Below are positions 12,928-19,108 of a stretch of 64,000 nt of DNA, piece after piece. The notes under the pieces were generated by a model, which made no database searches, was not told the DNA's origin, and saw only the letters and a list, made by a program, of their open reading frames with translations. A program made the position numbers and the translations under genes. Numbering within the stretch: position 1 is the stretch's first letter; every line of letters begins with the position of its first letter. Source of the DNA: Salinicola halimionae (GTDB lineage: Bacteria; Pseudomonadota; Gammaproteobacteria; Pseudomonadales; Halomonadaceae); assembly GCF_003206065.1 (NCBI RefSeq), contig NZ_PZJQ01000004.1, forward strand, positions 1,014,653 to 1,078,652. Direction: 5' to 3'.

Positions 12928-14319
12928 ATGGCAGTTCACAACTATGACCTCGTGGTCATCGGCTCGGGGCCTGCGGGCGAAAGTGCTGCGATCAACGCGG
13001 CGAAGCACGGTAAGCGTGTCGCGATCATTGAAAAGCAGTCTTCGGTCGGCGGCAATTGCACCCACTGGGGCACCATTCCCTCCAAGGCCCTGAGACATCA
13101 GGTCAAGCAGATCATGCAGTTCAACACCAACCGCATGTTCCGCGATATCGGCGAGCCGCGCTGGTTTTCCTTTCCCAAGGTGCTCGAACGCTCGCGGGTG
13201 ACGATCGATCAGCAGGTCGAGTTGCGCACCAAATTCTACTCCCGCAATCGCATCGACCTGTTTTTCGGCGTGGCGTATTTTCGCGACGAACATACCGTGG
13301 TGGTTCGTGACAATCACGAAGGGGCGGAAGAGCTCAGCGCACCGCAGTTCGTGATCGCCACCGGTTCGCGACCTTATCGTCCTGCCGACGTCAATTTCCG
13401 CCATCCGCGCATCTACTGTTCCGATACCATTCTGGGTCTGTCGCACACGCCCCGGACGCTGATCATCTACGGCGCTGGCGTGATCGGCTCGGAATATGCC
13501 TCTATCTTTTCCGGCCTTGGCGTCAAGGTCGATCTGATCGATACCCGTGAGCGTTTACTCTCCTTTCTCGATGACGAGATCAGCGATGCGCTTTCCTACG
13601 AGCTGCGCAACTACGGCGTGCTGATTCGTCACAACGAGGAATACCAGAGCGTCGAGGGCGACGAAGCGGGTGTGGTGGTCAACCTCAAATCGGGCAAGCG
13701 CCTACGTGCCGATGCCTTCCTGTGGGCCAACGGGCGCACCGGCAATACCGATCAGCTAGGTCTCGAGAATATCGGCCTCGAGCCCAACGGACGAGGCCAA
13801 TTGCAGGTCGACGATCACTACCGCACTGCGATTTCGCATATCTATGCAGTTGGGGACGTGATTGGCTGGCCGAGTCTGGCCAGTGCGGCCTACGATCAGG
13901 GCCGCAGTGCCAGCGATGAGTTTCTCGGCGAGGATTTTCGCTTTGTCGATGACATTCCCACCGGGATCTACACGATTCCGGAGATCAGCTCCGTCGGCAA
14001 GACCGAGCGGGAACTGACCGAAGCCAAGGTGCCCTACGAAGTTGCCCAGGCATTCTTCAAGGATACCGCCCGCGCGCAGATCACCGGCGACACCGCGGGC
14101 ATGCTCAAGATCCTGTTCCATCGCGAGACGCTGGAGATTCTGGGTATCCACTGCTTCGGTGATCAGGCTTCGGAGATCGTGCACATCGGTCAGGCGATCA
14201 TGCAGCAGAAGGGCGAAGCGAATACCCTGCGCTACTTCATCAATACGACGTTCAACTATCCCACCATGGCCGAAGCGTACCGGGTCGCCGCCCAAAATGG
14301 CTTGAACCGGCTGTTCTGA
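12928..14319 (+). CDS. sthA: Soluble pyridine nucleotide transhydrogenase
   Basis: SthA is a cytosolic FAD enzyme that moves reducing power between NADPH and NAD+. The 463-residue protein has the N-terminal FAD motif GSGPAGES and the SthA-specific stretch [17 protein letters not shown]. Dihydrolipoamide dehydrogenase-type relatives have a redox disulfide there; here only one Cys is left, as in known SthA. A second Rossmann motif [11 protein letters not shown] binds the nucleotide. An AAGGAG lies about 12 nt before the ATG, a long spacing. Position after nqr matches pseudomonads. Confidence 0.96.
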
Positions 14320-14517: not shown

Positions 14518-15432
14518 TCAGTCGACGGCGTTGTCTTTTCGTTGATGATCGATGGCGATCTGCAACGCTGGATTACGGTAGCGGTAGACTCGCAGGCTTT
14601 TCAGGAAGACATCATCCTCGAGACGTTGGTCGGACCGTTTGGCTCGAGTTCGGGAGGTCGGCGGCTTGACCGGCGGATCATTGAGGTGGGGTAATTTCAG
14701 CGCGGGATCCGGGATGAACAACGGTAGCGGCAGGTTCATGGCACGCCGCATGCGGCCGTCTTCCAGCGCTTCACGGAAAAACAGATTGGCCCGCATCACG
14801 GGCGCCTGCTGCTGGATCTGTGCAAGTGGCTCGCCATCCGGTATCTCGCCGAGTCTGCGCAACTGGATTTGAATGTGTGCAGCGGATTTATCCATCTGTT
14901 TCAGCTTGGCTTCGGCATCGGCCACGCTGAGACGTTTGATCGAGCGCCCGCTGGTGTACCACGCCAGCCTGACTCGTGACAGCGGCGCGTCGGCGACTGG
15001 GAGGTGGCGCCAGCACTGTTTGAGATGCAGTCGCGCCAACCCCTGCCCGCGCAGATGATCATGCAGGGCCGGATGGCGGAAAGGCAGCACGGCCTTGATT
15101 TCCGGGATCAAGCGGGGCGCGGACTGACGGATGTGCTTCAGCGTCGCACCAAAGCGGGCTTTGCCGAGATTGACTGCTGCGACAGCTTCCATGAGTGCCG
15201 GCCCGGCGACGATCACGCCGATGTAGTTGCGCGTCTCGCGCCCGTCCTGCCCATCCTGGTACCAGAAGTCGGTCAACGCGCGGCGCAACCATTGAGCGTC
15301 GACGCTCGATTCGCCCAGTGCCCAGGCGGGTGTCGGTCGCTCGGCGTAGAGGGTCGCCAAGTGGTCGACGGCATCGATCAACTGATCGAAATCGGATTCC
15401 AGCTCGGCCAGCAAGCGATACTGCAATTCCAT
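14518..15432 (-). CDS. tus: DNA replication terminus site-binding protein (Tus family)
   Basis: Tus binds Ter sites and stops replication forks arriving from one side. The 304-residue protein aligns by eye along nearly all of E. coli Tus (309). Matching stretches are the N-terminal ELESDFDQL, a central ETRNYIGVIVAG like Tus SSKAAVRLPGVL, and LHDHLRG at 123-129 corresponding to VHRHLPG. His124 and Gly129 fall at lock-pocket positions His144 and Gly149; the Tus Phe140 position is not clearly kept. RLAWYTSGRSIKRL and FFREALEDGRMRRAMNLPLPLFI also correspond. The start has AGGGG upstream. A Ter-like sequence overlaps its promoter. Similarity is modest, so confirmation by profile search is needed. 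Confidence 0.82.
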   Translation of the reverse strand: MELQYRLLAELESDFDQLIDAVDHLATLYAERPTPAWALGESSVDAQWLRRALTDFWYQDGQDGRETRNYIGVIVAGPALMEAVAAVNLGKARFGATLKHIRQSAPRLIPEIKAVLPFRHPALHDHLRGQGLARLHLKQCWRHLPVADAPLSRVRLAWYTSGRSIKRLSVADAEAKLKQMDKSAAHIQIQLRRLGEIPDGEPLAQIQQQAPVMRANLFFREALEDGRMRRAMNLPLPLFIPDPALKLPHLNDPPVKPPTSRTRAKRSDQRLEDDVFLKSLRVYRYRNPALQIAIDHQRKDNAVD

Positions 15433-15458
15433 GAGTGGCCCCTGACGGTGAACGCCAT

Positions 15459-15488
15459 TTTATACCGTTATCTTAGTCAATTTGTCTA
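15459..15488 (-). promoter_or_regulatory. Predicted promoter of the Tus-like gene
   Basis: Reading on the minus strand, TAGACA (15488-15483) and TATAAA (15464-15459) are spaced 18 bp. The transcript would start near 15452, about 20 nt before the ATG at 15432. The -35 lies inside the Ter-like sequence, so bound Tus could repress its own gene. Confidence 0.5.
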
Positions 15489-15498
15489 GTAGCTAAAG
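15480..15498 (+). promoter_or_regulatory. Ter-like site in the tus promoter
   Basis: ATTTGTCTAGTAGCTAAAG matches E. coli TerB at 13 of 19 positions, including the whole CTAAAG end with the critical C of the lock. In E. coli a Ter site also sits in the tus promoter and gives autorepression. If orientation rules carry over, it would block forks moving from high to low coordinates. The site is a candidate only. Confidence 0.4.
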
Positions 15499-15604: not shown

Positions 15605-16504
15605 CTAGCGGTCACGGTAGCGGCGTGTCAGGTCACCATAGGCATCGATGCGACGATCCCGCAGATAGGGCCAGATGCGGCGGACATCCTCGCTCCGCGT
15701 CAGATCGACGTCGACGATCCGATTTTCGTTCGCCTCGCCGGCATGCGTTAGCAGCTCGCCTTGAGGACCGCAGACGAAACTCCCTCCCCAAAAATCGATG
15801 CCTTCACCGACGCCGGAGAGATCGGGTTCGTGTCCGACCCGATTGGCAACGATGACCGGCAGGCCGTTGGCGACACCGTGCGAGCGCTGAATCAATGTCC
15901 AGGCATCCTTCTGGCGCTGTTTTTCCGCGGGGTCATCGGATGGCGTCCAGCCGATCGCGGTGGGGTAGAGCAGCAGATCGGCTCCAGCCAGTGCCATCAG
16001 GCGTGCCGCTTCCGGGTACCACTGATCCCAGCACACCAGCACGCCGAGGCGGCCGACGGAAGTATCGATCGGTTCGAAGCCTTGAGCGGCATCTTCGTCG
16101 CCCGGCGTGAAATAGAACTTTTCGTAGAAGCCGGGATCATCGGGGATATGCATTTTTCGGTAGTGGCCGACCCTGCCCCTGGCTCGGTCCAGCACGATCG
16201 CGGTGTTGTGATAGAGCCCGGCGGCGCGGCGCTCGAAGATCGACCCGACGATGACGATATCCAGTTCACGTGCCAGGGCGGCAAGATGCTGCCCGGTCGT
16301 TCCATCCAGCGGTTCGGCGAGATCGAAAAGATCAGTATCTTCGCACTGACAGAAGTAATGGGTCGCGTGCAGTTCCTGCAGCAGTATCAGTTCGGCACCT
16401 TGGGCGGCGAGCTCGCGGATACCGGCGTCACTGGTTTCGAGGCTGCGTTGCTTGTCGGGCCAGGCCTGTTGCTGGACCAGACCCACCTTGAGTGTCTTGG
16501 ACAT
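15605..16504 (-). CDS. aguB: N-carbamoylputrescine amidase
   Basis: AguB hydrolyses N-carbamoylputrescine to putrescine, CO2 and ammonia, the last step of the agmatine route. The 299-residue protein belongs to the carbon-nitrogen hydrolase (nitrilase) superfamily. The expected catalytic triad is Glu44 (QELHA), Lys117 (RKMHIPDD) and Cys158 (VCWDQWYPEAAR). It follows aguA by 44 bp on the same strand, so the two should be one operon. Cytoplasmic, no signal peptide. Putrescine serves growth and stress protection or can be used as a nitrogen source. Confidence 0.96.
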   Translation of the reverse strand: MSKTLKVGLVQQQAWPDKQRSLETSDAGIRELAAQGAELILLQELHATHYFCQCEDTDLFDLAEPLDGTTGQHLAALARELDIVIVGSIFERRAAGLYHNTAIVLDRARGRVGHYRKMHIPDDPGFYEKFYFTPGDEDAAQGFEPIDTSVGRLGVLVCWDQWYPEAARLMALAGADLLLYPTAIGWTPSDDPAEKQRQKDAWTLIQRSHGVANGLPVIVANRVGHEPDLSGVGEGIDFWGGSFVCGPQGELLTHAGEANENRIVDVDLTRSEDVRRIWPYLRDRRIDAYGDLTRRYRDR

Positions 16505-16548
16505 TGATCTTTCCTTGACTTGGATCGTCAGTTGACTCGGCTATTCGA

Positions 16549-17601
16549 TTAACTCAGGCAAAGCGCGGGATTCAAGGCCCCGCGCGGCAATTGCATGGTC
16601 AGGCAGTGAAGACTGCCATGCTGACGGATGACCGCGCGACAGTCGATCGGTATCACCTCGCGACCCGGGAAGGCGCCGGCGAGAACCTGCAGTGCCCGGA
16701 AATCGGCGGAGTCGCCATAGGTTGGTACCAGCACCGCGCCGTTGATGATCAGGAAATTGGCGTAGGTCGCTGGCAGCCGATGGCCGTCGTCAGGGTCGTA
16801 ACACGCCTTGGGCCAAGGAAGCGGTAGCAGCCGATAGGGCGAACCGTCTTCTCGACGAAGTGCCTTGAGCTCTTCTTCCATGGCGGAGAGTGCCTTGTAA
16901 TGCGCGTCCTGCGGGTCATCACAACGAACGTAGGCAATCGTTGCCGGGTCGCAGAAGCGCGCCAGCGTATCGATATGACTATCGGTATCATCGCCTTCGA
17001 GATGACCATGCTCGAGCCACAGCACGCGGGAAATGCCCAATCGTTCTGCGAGGTGGTCTTCGATGGCCTCGCGGTCCAGGCTTGGGTTGCGATTGGGGTT
17101 GAGCAGACAGGCGCTGGTCGTGAGCAGCGTACCTTCGCCATCGGTGTCGATGGCGCCTCCTTCGAGTACCAAATTCTGGGACGTTACCGGTGTGGCGAAT
17201 ATTTGCCGCGCGGCCAAGGCCTGGGTCAAGGCATCGTCCCGTGCGGCGGCGAATTTGCCGCCCCAGCCGGTGAACACGTAGTCGAGCAATTCGAGCGTGC
17301 CGTTGCGCTCGATGGCGATCGGGCCATGGTCCCGCGCCCAGGTATCATCGCTGTCGACCATAACGAGATAGCGACGTCCGGTATCGACGCCAAGCGCCTG
17401 GAAACGCGCGCTCAGACGTTCGCGCTGCGCCTCGTCATGCACGCCGATCAGCACCGGCTGATAGCGAGTGATGGCCACGACCATCGCCTCCAGCGTCGCT
17501 TCGATATGCTCGAGCAGCGGCGCCCAGTCACTGGTCGGGGTCGGCCAGGTCAGTTGAATCGCATCTTGGGGATGCCATTCGGGGAACAGACGCAGGGTCA
17601 T
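16549..17601 (-). CDS. aguA: Agmatine deiminase
   Basis: AguA converts agmatine to N-carbamoylputrescine and ammonia. The 350-residue protein is a peptidylarginine-deiminase-fold enzyme with MVDSDDTWARDHGP, VLEGGAID and the C-terminal GSLHCLTMQLPRG carrying the nucleophile Cys (residue 333). I start at ATG 17601 because GGAG lies 5-6 nt before it; an in-frame ATG at 17619 lacks a ribosome binding site. It is the promoter-proximal gene of aguAB. I saw no agmatine regulator nearby. Confidence 0.96.
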   Translation of the reverse strand: MTLRLFPEWHPQDAIQLTWPTPTSDWAPLLEHIEATLEAMVVAITRYQPVLIGVHDEAQRERLSARFQALGVDTGRRYLVMVDSDDTWARDHGPIAIERNGTLELLDYVFTGWGGKFAAARDDALTQALAARQIFATPVTSQNLVLEGGAIDTDGEGTLLTTSACLLNPNRNPSLDREAIEDHLAERLGISRVLWLEHGHLEGDDTDSHIDTLARFCDPATIAYVRCDDPQDAHYKALSAMEEELKALRREDGSPYRLLPLPWPKACYDPDDGHRLPATYANFLIINGAVLVPTYGDSADFRALQVLAGAFPGREVIPIDCRAVIRQHGSLHCLTMQLPRGALNPALCLS

Positions 17602-17659
17602 GGTGTCTCCATTGCGCATAAGGGCCGGTGTGCGTCAGGGCTGACGACGAGGGCGCGGC

Positions 17660-17866: not shown

Positions 17867-19108
17867 ATGTTCGACCGTTTACCCTTTCTGGTGGGCCTGA
17901 GGTACGTCCGGGCCAAACGACGTAATCACTTCATCTCCTTCATTTCACTAACCTCGATGCTGGGTCTGGCCTTGGGCGTCGCCGTGCTGATACTGGTGCT
18001 ATCGGTCATGAACGGCTTCGATCATGAGCTGCGAACTCGCGTGCTCGGGATGGTGCCGCATACCCGTATCGAACAGCAGGGCGGCATGCAGGATTGGAAA
18101 GCGCTGGCCGAGAAGGTCGATCAGCACAAGGACGTGATCGCTTCGGCGCCCTACGTGCAGCAGCAGGGCATGTTTTCGGCGAGCGGCCGCACCCAGGGGG
18201 CCATGGTCACCGGGGTGCAGCCGGAATACGAGCGCCATGTCTCGATCATCGATCAGCACATGCAGGCGGGCACGCTCGATGAGCTCTCTCCCGGCAGTTG
18301 GCATGTGGTACTGGGTTCGTTGCTGGCGCGCAACCTGGGGGTCGGCGTGGGCGATCGCGTGACGCTATTGGTGCCGGAGGCGTCGATCACGCCGGGAGGC
18401 GTTTTCCCGCGCTTGAAACGCTTCACGGTCAGCGGGATCTTCAAGGTCGGCGCCGATCTGGACGCCAACCTGGCGTATGCCAACATCGAGGACATGCAAA
18501 CGCTCGCGCGCCTCGGTGACAAGGTCGATGGCTTGCGTCTGGAGCTCGACGATCTGTTCAAGGCGGGGCCGGTGACCCGGGATATCGTTTCGAATCTGGG
18601 TTCCGGTTACCGGGGCATGGACTGGACCTATACCCACGGCAATCTGTTTCAGGCGATCCAGATGGAAAAGCACATGATCGGTCTGTTGCTGATGGTGATC
18701 GTGGCGGTGGCGGCGTTCAACATCGTCTCGACGTTGGTGATGGTAGTCACCGACAAACATGCGGATATCGCCATTCTGCGCACGATCGGCGCCAAGCCGA
18801 AATCGATCATGGGCATCTTCGTTGTACAGGGGTTGGCGATCGGCATCATCGGCATCGTCATCGGGGTCATCGCCGGCGTGATTCTGGCGCTGACGGTATC
18901 CGACATCATTGCCTGGGTGCAGGCCGTGACCGGTATTCAGTTCCTCGATCCCAACGTCTATTTCATCAGCTATCTGCCGTCACGACTCGAGATGAGCGAC
19001 CTGATCGTGATCGTTTCCAGCGCCTTCGGGCTGACTTTCCTGTCGACGCTCTACCCGGCCTGGCGAGCGGCGCGTATCCAGCCGGCCGAGGTGCTGCGTT
19101 ATGAGTGA
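17867..19108 (+). CDS. lolC: Lipoprotein-releasing ABC transporter permease LolC/LolE family
   Basis: This inner-membrane permease subunit of the Lol system extracts outer-membrane lipoproteins and hands them to LolA. The 413-residue protein has the family layout: an N-terminal helix (about 26-48), a large periplasmic domain, and three C-terminal helices (about 270-300, 315-345, 378-400), plus the coupling segment ADIAILRTIGAKPKSI. lolD overlaps its end by 8 bases. There is no second permease gene after lolD, unlike the lolCDE order of E. coli or pseudomonads. The product may act as a LolF-like homodimer, or lolE may lie elsewhere. Confidence 0.93.
   Translation: MFDRLPFLVGLRYVRAKRRNHFISFISLTSMLGLALGVAVLILVLSVMNGFDHELRTRVLGMVPHTRIEQQGGMQDWKALAEKVDQHKDVIASAPYVQQQGMFSASGRTQGAMVTGVQPEYERHVSIIDQHMQAGTLDELSPGSWHVVLGSLLARNLGVGVGDRVTLLVPEASITPGGVFPRLKRFTVSGIFKVGADLDANLAYANIEDMQTLARLGDKVDGLRLELDDLFKAGPVTRDIVSNLGSGYRGMDWTYTHGNLFQAIQMEKHMIGLLLMVIVAVAAFNIVSTLVMVVTDKHADIAILRTIGAKPKSIMGIFVVQGLAIGIIGIVIGVIAGVILALTVSDIIAWVQAVTGIQFLDPNVYFISYLPSRLEMSDLIVIVSSAFGLTFLSTLYPAWRAARIQPAEVLRYE

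Follow-up and report, generated by a model that had tools for sequence, protein, structure and literature searches.

In a 64-kb stretch of the genome of Salinicola halimionae (contig NZ_PZJQ01000004.1; this whole stretch is called the window below), a minus-strand open reading frame (ORF) encodes a 304-residue protein of the Tus family. As shown in Table 1, a predicted Ter site, AAGATAACGGTATAAA, lies directly upstream of this tus-like gene on the same strand, which is also the layout of E. coli tus. A preliminary description of this DNA had placed such an ORF between sthA and lolC, and the ORF is indeed so placed, with a PF00795 gene and a PF04371 gene intervening before lolC. It had also raised the idea that a halophile might have a replication fork trap. 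The Tus-family protein, the trap, and a Ter site before tus were supported, but the site that had been named was wrong. It is highly probable that the Tus-fold protein and the asymmetric site form a resident Tus-Ter replication fork trap.

Table 1. Features of the tus-like locus, in window coordinates.
Feature	Position	Strand	Basis or remark
tus-like gene for a divergent replication terminator protein of the Tus family, 304 aa	14518..15432	-	ATG at 15432
Predicted Ter site (16 bases), vicinal to tus	15459..15474	-	Conservation and oriented copies around dif
Ter core (13 bases)	15460-15472	-	Ends 27 nt before the tus ATG
sthA-like pyridine nucleotide-disulphide oxidoreductase gene, conserved tus neighbour	12928..14319	+	Pfam and neighbourhood comparison
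Carbon-nitrogen hydrolase gene, aguB-like, PF00795	15605-16504	-	Pfam and neighbourhood comparison
PAD_porph family gene, aguA-like, PF04371	16549-17619	-	Pfam and neighbourhood comparison
lolC	17867-19108		

Likeness of the protein to E. coli Tus

The likeness to Tus had been claimed from a match by eye. It was found again as a distant likeness by profile-profile and fold comparison. The hhalign profile-profile match to Tus has an E-value of 2.5e-18 over 218 columns, while 12 shuffled controls and one reversed control all gave 0.077 or worse. The Tus fold is present; structural alignments with PDB 1ecr and 4xr1 cover 251-256 residues at about 14% identity.

Several searches weigh against this assignment. 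The window protein matched no Pfam family, PF05472 included, up to an E-value of 0.1, and PF05472 had no match in the genome of origin (0 of 1). As a single sequence, the protein matched no NCBIfam family. A profile of 43 halomonad proteins missed E. coli Tus among the PDB sequences, and hhalign of the halomonad profile against E. coli Tus alone gave an E-value of 0.14. In addition, the single protein had no match in PHROGs or among phage records, and only four weak unrelated matches among PDB sequences (E-values of 0.44-0.52). Another profile, A3, matched Tus in the PDB; this was discarded as evidence because A3 itself includes E. coli Tus. The PF05472 scores of bridge proteins fall in between. 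Since the protein is below the Pfam cut-off, it was filed as a divergent Tus beyond the present PF05472 model. The PF05472 search had been suggested in the preliminary description as a check, and its lack of a match would have misled if taken as a refutation, the profile-profile and fold comparisons being positive.

According to the text of PMC10331603, the cytosine-lock residues of E. coli Tus are Phe140, His144, and Gly149. It had been proposed that His124 and Gly129 of the window protein take lock-pocket positions. By alignment only, His124 does pair with His144, but the partner of Gly149 is Gly131 in both alignments. Other differences from E. coli Tus tell against a working trap: in the alignment, His120 occupies the place of Phe140, and Glu47, Glu49, and Arg198 fall in gaps. 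They favour an alternative in which this Tus relative binds the sites and may also act as a repressor of its own gene, but has lost the lock and arrests no fork. This alternative is considered improbable, as His144 and Gly149 are kept in the alignments and the orientation of the sites, described below, argues against it.

Oriented sites around dif

The 13-base core GATAACGGTATAA is the sole match at up to two mismatches within the window. Allowing one change, it precedes tus in 24 of 30 loci (21 exact), where the surrounding DNA has diverged. The 16-base consensus was built from 40 sites of six genomes (37 exact and 3 one-mismatch); its core was fixed by the search itself, while the flanking AA and A were free and are weaker. 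A promoter scan across the site at tus found no promoter. By eye, with no tool result, a TAGACA and a TATAAA separated by 18 bases overlap the site. Exact matches to the 16-base site number 28 in a viral collection, and nothing was concluded from them.

The site named in the preliminary description was 15480-15498, and 13 of its 19 positions do agree with E. coli TerB. This is the level of chance, as the window has three such 13/19 matches and 20 shuffled windows have 0-8 (mean about 2.8). The segment is on the other strand from tus, whereas TerB of E. coli shares its strand with tus. Nor is the segment conserved; among 16 relatives of the Salinicola group, its best ungapped match in the 150 bases upstream of tus is only 8-12/19. 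Thus, there is hardly any chance that 15480-15498 is the Ter site.

In the genome of origin (contig C6), dif was found at 1224528 (E. coli-type core with 2 mismatches). Three exact copies of the core are on the minus strand, at 931358, 1030112 (the copy before tus), and 1167649, and three are on the plus strand, at 1277061, 1294614, and 1522486. One test set beforehand was that related, oriented sites should exist near the terminus; they do, but their sequence is the core given above.

Is this common in the family? Orientation was counted for sites on the dif contig in 34 of the 61 family genomes, representing 18 genera; G020, which lacks tus and has one minus site before dif, was excluded. 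Among the matches listed, all 146 exact sites follow one rule: those before dif read minus, and those after it read plus. Both sides of dif are occupied in 31 of the 34 genomes, and the innermost sites are 23-136 kb apart (median 76 kb). A genome having a set has 2-9 exact copies, and the median distance to dif is 59 kb. The genomes are related, so the sites are non-independent, which weakens the count. Still, a set of sites that switches strand at dif is needless for mere binding or self-repression, and the strictness of the orientation across 34 genomes of 18 genera suggests that a direction-dependent action on forks has been selected. Both points argue against the lost-lock alternative.

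When the sites were placed on the circle with the help of dnaA, the rule was followed by 36 of 38 exact sites in 8 single-contig genomes and by 48 of 49 one-mismatch sites in 11 genomes (the lengths of G026, G027, and G029 were rounded). All three misfits, which count against the rule, are in G039. On contig C1 of G039, dif and dnaA are separated by 20% of the genome, and the sign of the skew changes in patches; the separation is 47-56% in the other eight single-contig genomes. Both exact misfits (minus) are inside an island of positive skew, and the third (plus) is beside a negative sample. Since the strands of the misfits agree with the local skew, the patchy skew and the position of dif suggest that the contig is rearranged or misassembled. 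Ter strands that track local skew might help to check assemblies.

In G005, 11 of 11 skew samples are positive up to 2.15 Mb and 9 of 9 are negative from 2.205 Mb, with dif at 2.195 Mb. With exceptions only in G039, oppositely oriented sites flank dif and the GC-skew switch in the polarity of E. coli. The E. coli chromosome likewise has several sites flanking dif and the skew switch, and its sites right of dif read plus; the comparison, with E. coli E2865, was made on the right side only, where TerC and TerB are both plus and TerB is on the tus strand. On the other hand, the halomonad Ter sequence differs from that of E. coli. Its AAG end faces dif and is probably the counterpart of the GC(6) end in the E. 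coli site. The outermost sites of three Salinicola genomes (L043, L053, and L068) share flanks (GGTATCACCATAGATAACGGTATAACC and similar), as if they were within a conserved gene.

Co-occurrence, site variants, and gene neighbourhoods

The tus gene is present in 58 of the 61 family genomes. Exact sites number 282 in the family genomes, against 3 for the reversed pattern, and 52 of the 58 tus-bearing genomes have at least two. The six with fewer are the three genomes of genus g6 and G040, G046, and G060; the latter three weigh against a strict pairing of protein and site. The three tus-less family genomes, all of one genus, have 1, 0, and 0 exact sites, and outside the family 27 tus-less genomes have two sites between them. 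Genus g6 has tus and no exact site; instead, it has GATAACG[CG]GATAA. This variant precedes tus in two of the three genomes, while the third has TATAACGCGATAA. In G045 and G059, all 10 copies show the expected orientation relative to dif, and the four copies in G022 are on four contigs, none shared with dif. One copy in the tus-less G058 is a further point against the pairing; the other four genomes of that search had no copies. Site and tus co-occur and co-vary. In G031, the tus frame is broken near the C-terminus (contig C1:3012206-3013062, minus; two overlapping pieces in different frames), and six exact sites are kept. Either an error in sequencing or recent loss would account for the break.

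Bacteria have polar motifs besides Ter, and the sites might be part of a different polar or terminus-organising system (FtsK loading sites, a MatP-like system, or a transcription factor regulon), with tus as a bystander. Some outer sites (the three Salinicola sites mentioned above) are in sequence common to several species, perhaps inside genes, which is in favour of this reading. However, a copy stands directly before tus in about half of the loci, the tus-less genus has no site set, and g6 has changed its tus copy and its dif-flanking copies alike. The few exact copies, near dif, are also unlike a chromosome-wide motif or a regulon. Thus, a bystander role of tus is very improbable.

Sites were also found outside the family. 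G090, of another family, has a protein of 34% identity with an exact site just before the likely tus start. In G088, of another family of the order, contig C1 has a tus homolog at 4150034-4150786 (minus) and dif at 4230494. A candidate variant, GGGGATGGTATA, precedes this tus, and its 8 exact copies are all minus. Because 16 of 20 skew samples on this contig are positive, the all-minus orientation agrees with the commoner arm. G088 yielded no plus-strand set and no two-sided trap. In G092, 2 plus and 3 minus copies of this variant are spread on five contigs.

Among 80 named loci, the site, with one change at most, is in front of tus in 41, with sthA, agu, or apbE genes around and lolC in 30. 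The aguB-like and aguA-like genes of the window (15605..17619) are part of this conserved neighbourhood and not of the trap. In 39 loci, unlike in E. coli, tus lies directly behind yacG and has no site, which speaks against a site at tus as a general feature; six of them still have sthA alongside. No locus has both yacG and the site (0 of 80). The ends of the loci cut some neighbourhoods in this count, and the YacG query had a run-on N-terminus. The yacG type (L112, L116-L118, and L120-L157 in part) is a second stable arrangement within the same family. G021, G030, G044, G028, and G050 have tus behind yacG and keep dif-flanking sites with none at tus. Thus, arrest and self-regulation appear separable.

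In the tus tree, the 7 genera tested all form single groups, Modicisalibacter with low support; the deep branches, flagged as long, were unusable, and the tree served for the genus grouping within the family alone. A mixed Tus profile that included rows from halomonads matched in 26 of 369 genomes of the class, while PF05472 matched in 7 of 274 (a similar but not identical draw). The Pfam model therefore seems to miss much of the Tus superfamily.

Proposed mechanism and significance

The putative trap would work as follows. The Tus-fold protein would bind the asymmetric sites, which flank dif and point away from it. By homology with E. coli, each bound site would admit forks heading to dif and block forks already past it, some form of lock being at work. 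Given this arrangement, a fork from oriC would pass the copies on its own arm and halt at those on the far arm, so that both forks would fuse near dif. In E. coli, TerB lets Tus repress its own gene, as described in the text of PMC8707476. The copy before the halomonad tus may similarly allow the protein to limit its own transcription.

In its main text, the PF05472 survey of Galli et al. (PMC6549158) names resident tus genes only in Enterobacterales, Pseudoalteromonas, and Aeromonadales, and argues that replication in most bacteria ends by free fork fusion. There, a resident tus is chromosomal, has a conserved neighbourhood, and has a tree congruent with the species tree. The halomonad genes are chromosomal, have conserved neighbourhoods, and group by genus, which is in line with this definition, as far as it is given in that text, and with the resident tus of the three clades; unlike these, the halomonads form a further clade outside them. 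Six halomonad-related words are missing from the main text of the survey, and no report of a halomonad fork trap turned up in searches of an open-access library. Most likely, the trap is family-wide, present in most of the Halomonadaceae, unlisted in the main text of the survey, and has a divergent protein and its own site.

Tus-family proteins are also found on plasmids (e.g., Halomonas, Marinobacter, and IncC plasmids), and some Halomonas plasmid copies are annotated as 'DNA replication terminus site-binding protein'. They belong to the same family but are at most 54% identical to the window protein. The Ter core with up to two mismatches was found before tus in none of eight plasmid stretches; L162 has a single weak match, downstream of the gene.

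I regard a wider proposal as fairly likely, with less confidence than the trap itself: the Halomonadaceae have a fourth resident Tus-Ter trap, with a profile-missed Tus subfamily, its own Ter code, and no counterparts of the residues with which E. coli Tus slows the helicase; the site and the protein co-evolved into sub-codes (the 13-base core, the g6 variant in one genus, and the G088 variant in other families); and hidden traps of this kind are common among gammaproteobacteria. A family-wide trap beyond the reach of PF05472 would alter the map of resident tus drawn in the main text of PMC6549158. As the halomonad protein lacks counterparts of residues said to slow the helicase in the E. coli system, this naturally divergent pair of protein and site offers a way to ask which parts of the Tus lock are essential. 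Halomonads, moreover, are in laboratory and industrial use. Natural experiments are on offer within the family itself, where one genus has neither tus nor a site set and another has altered sites.
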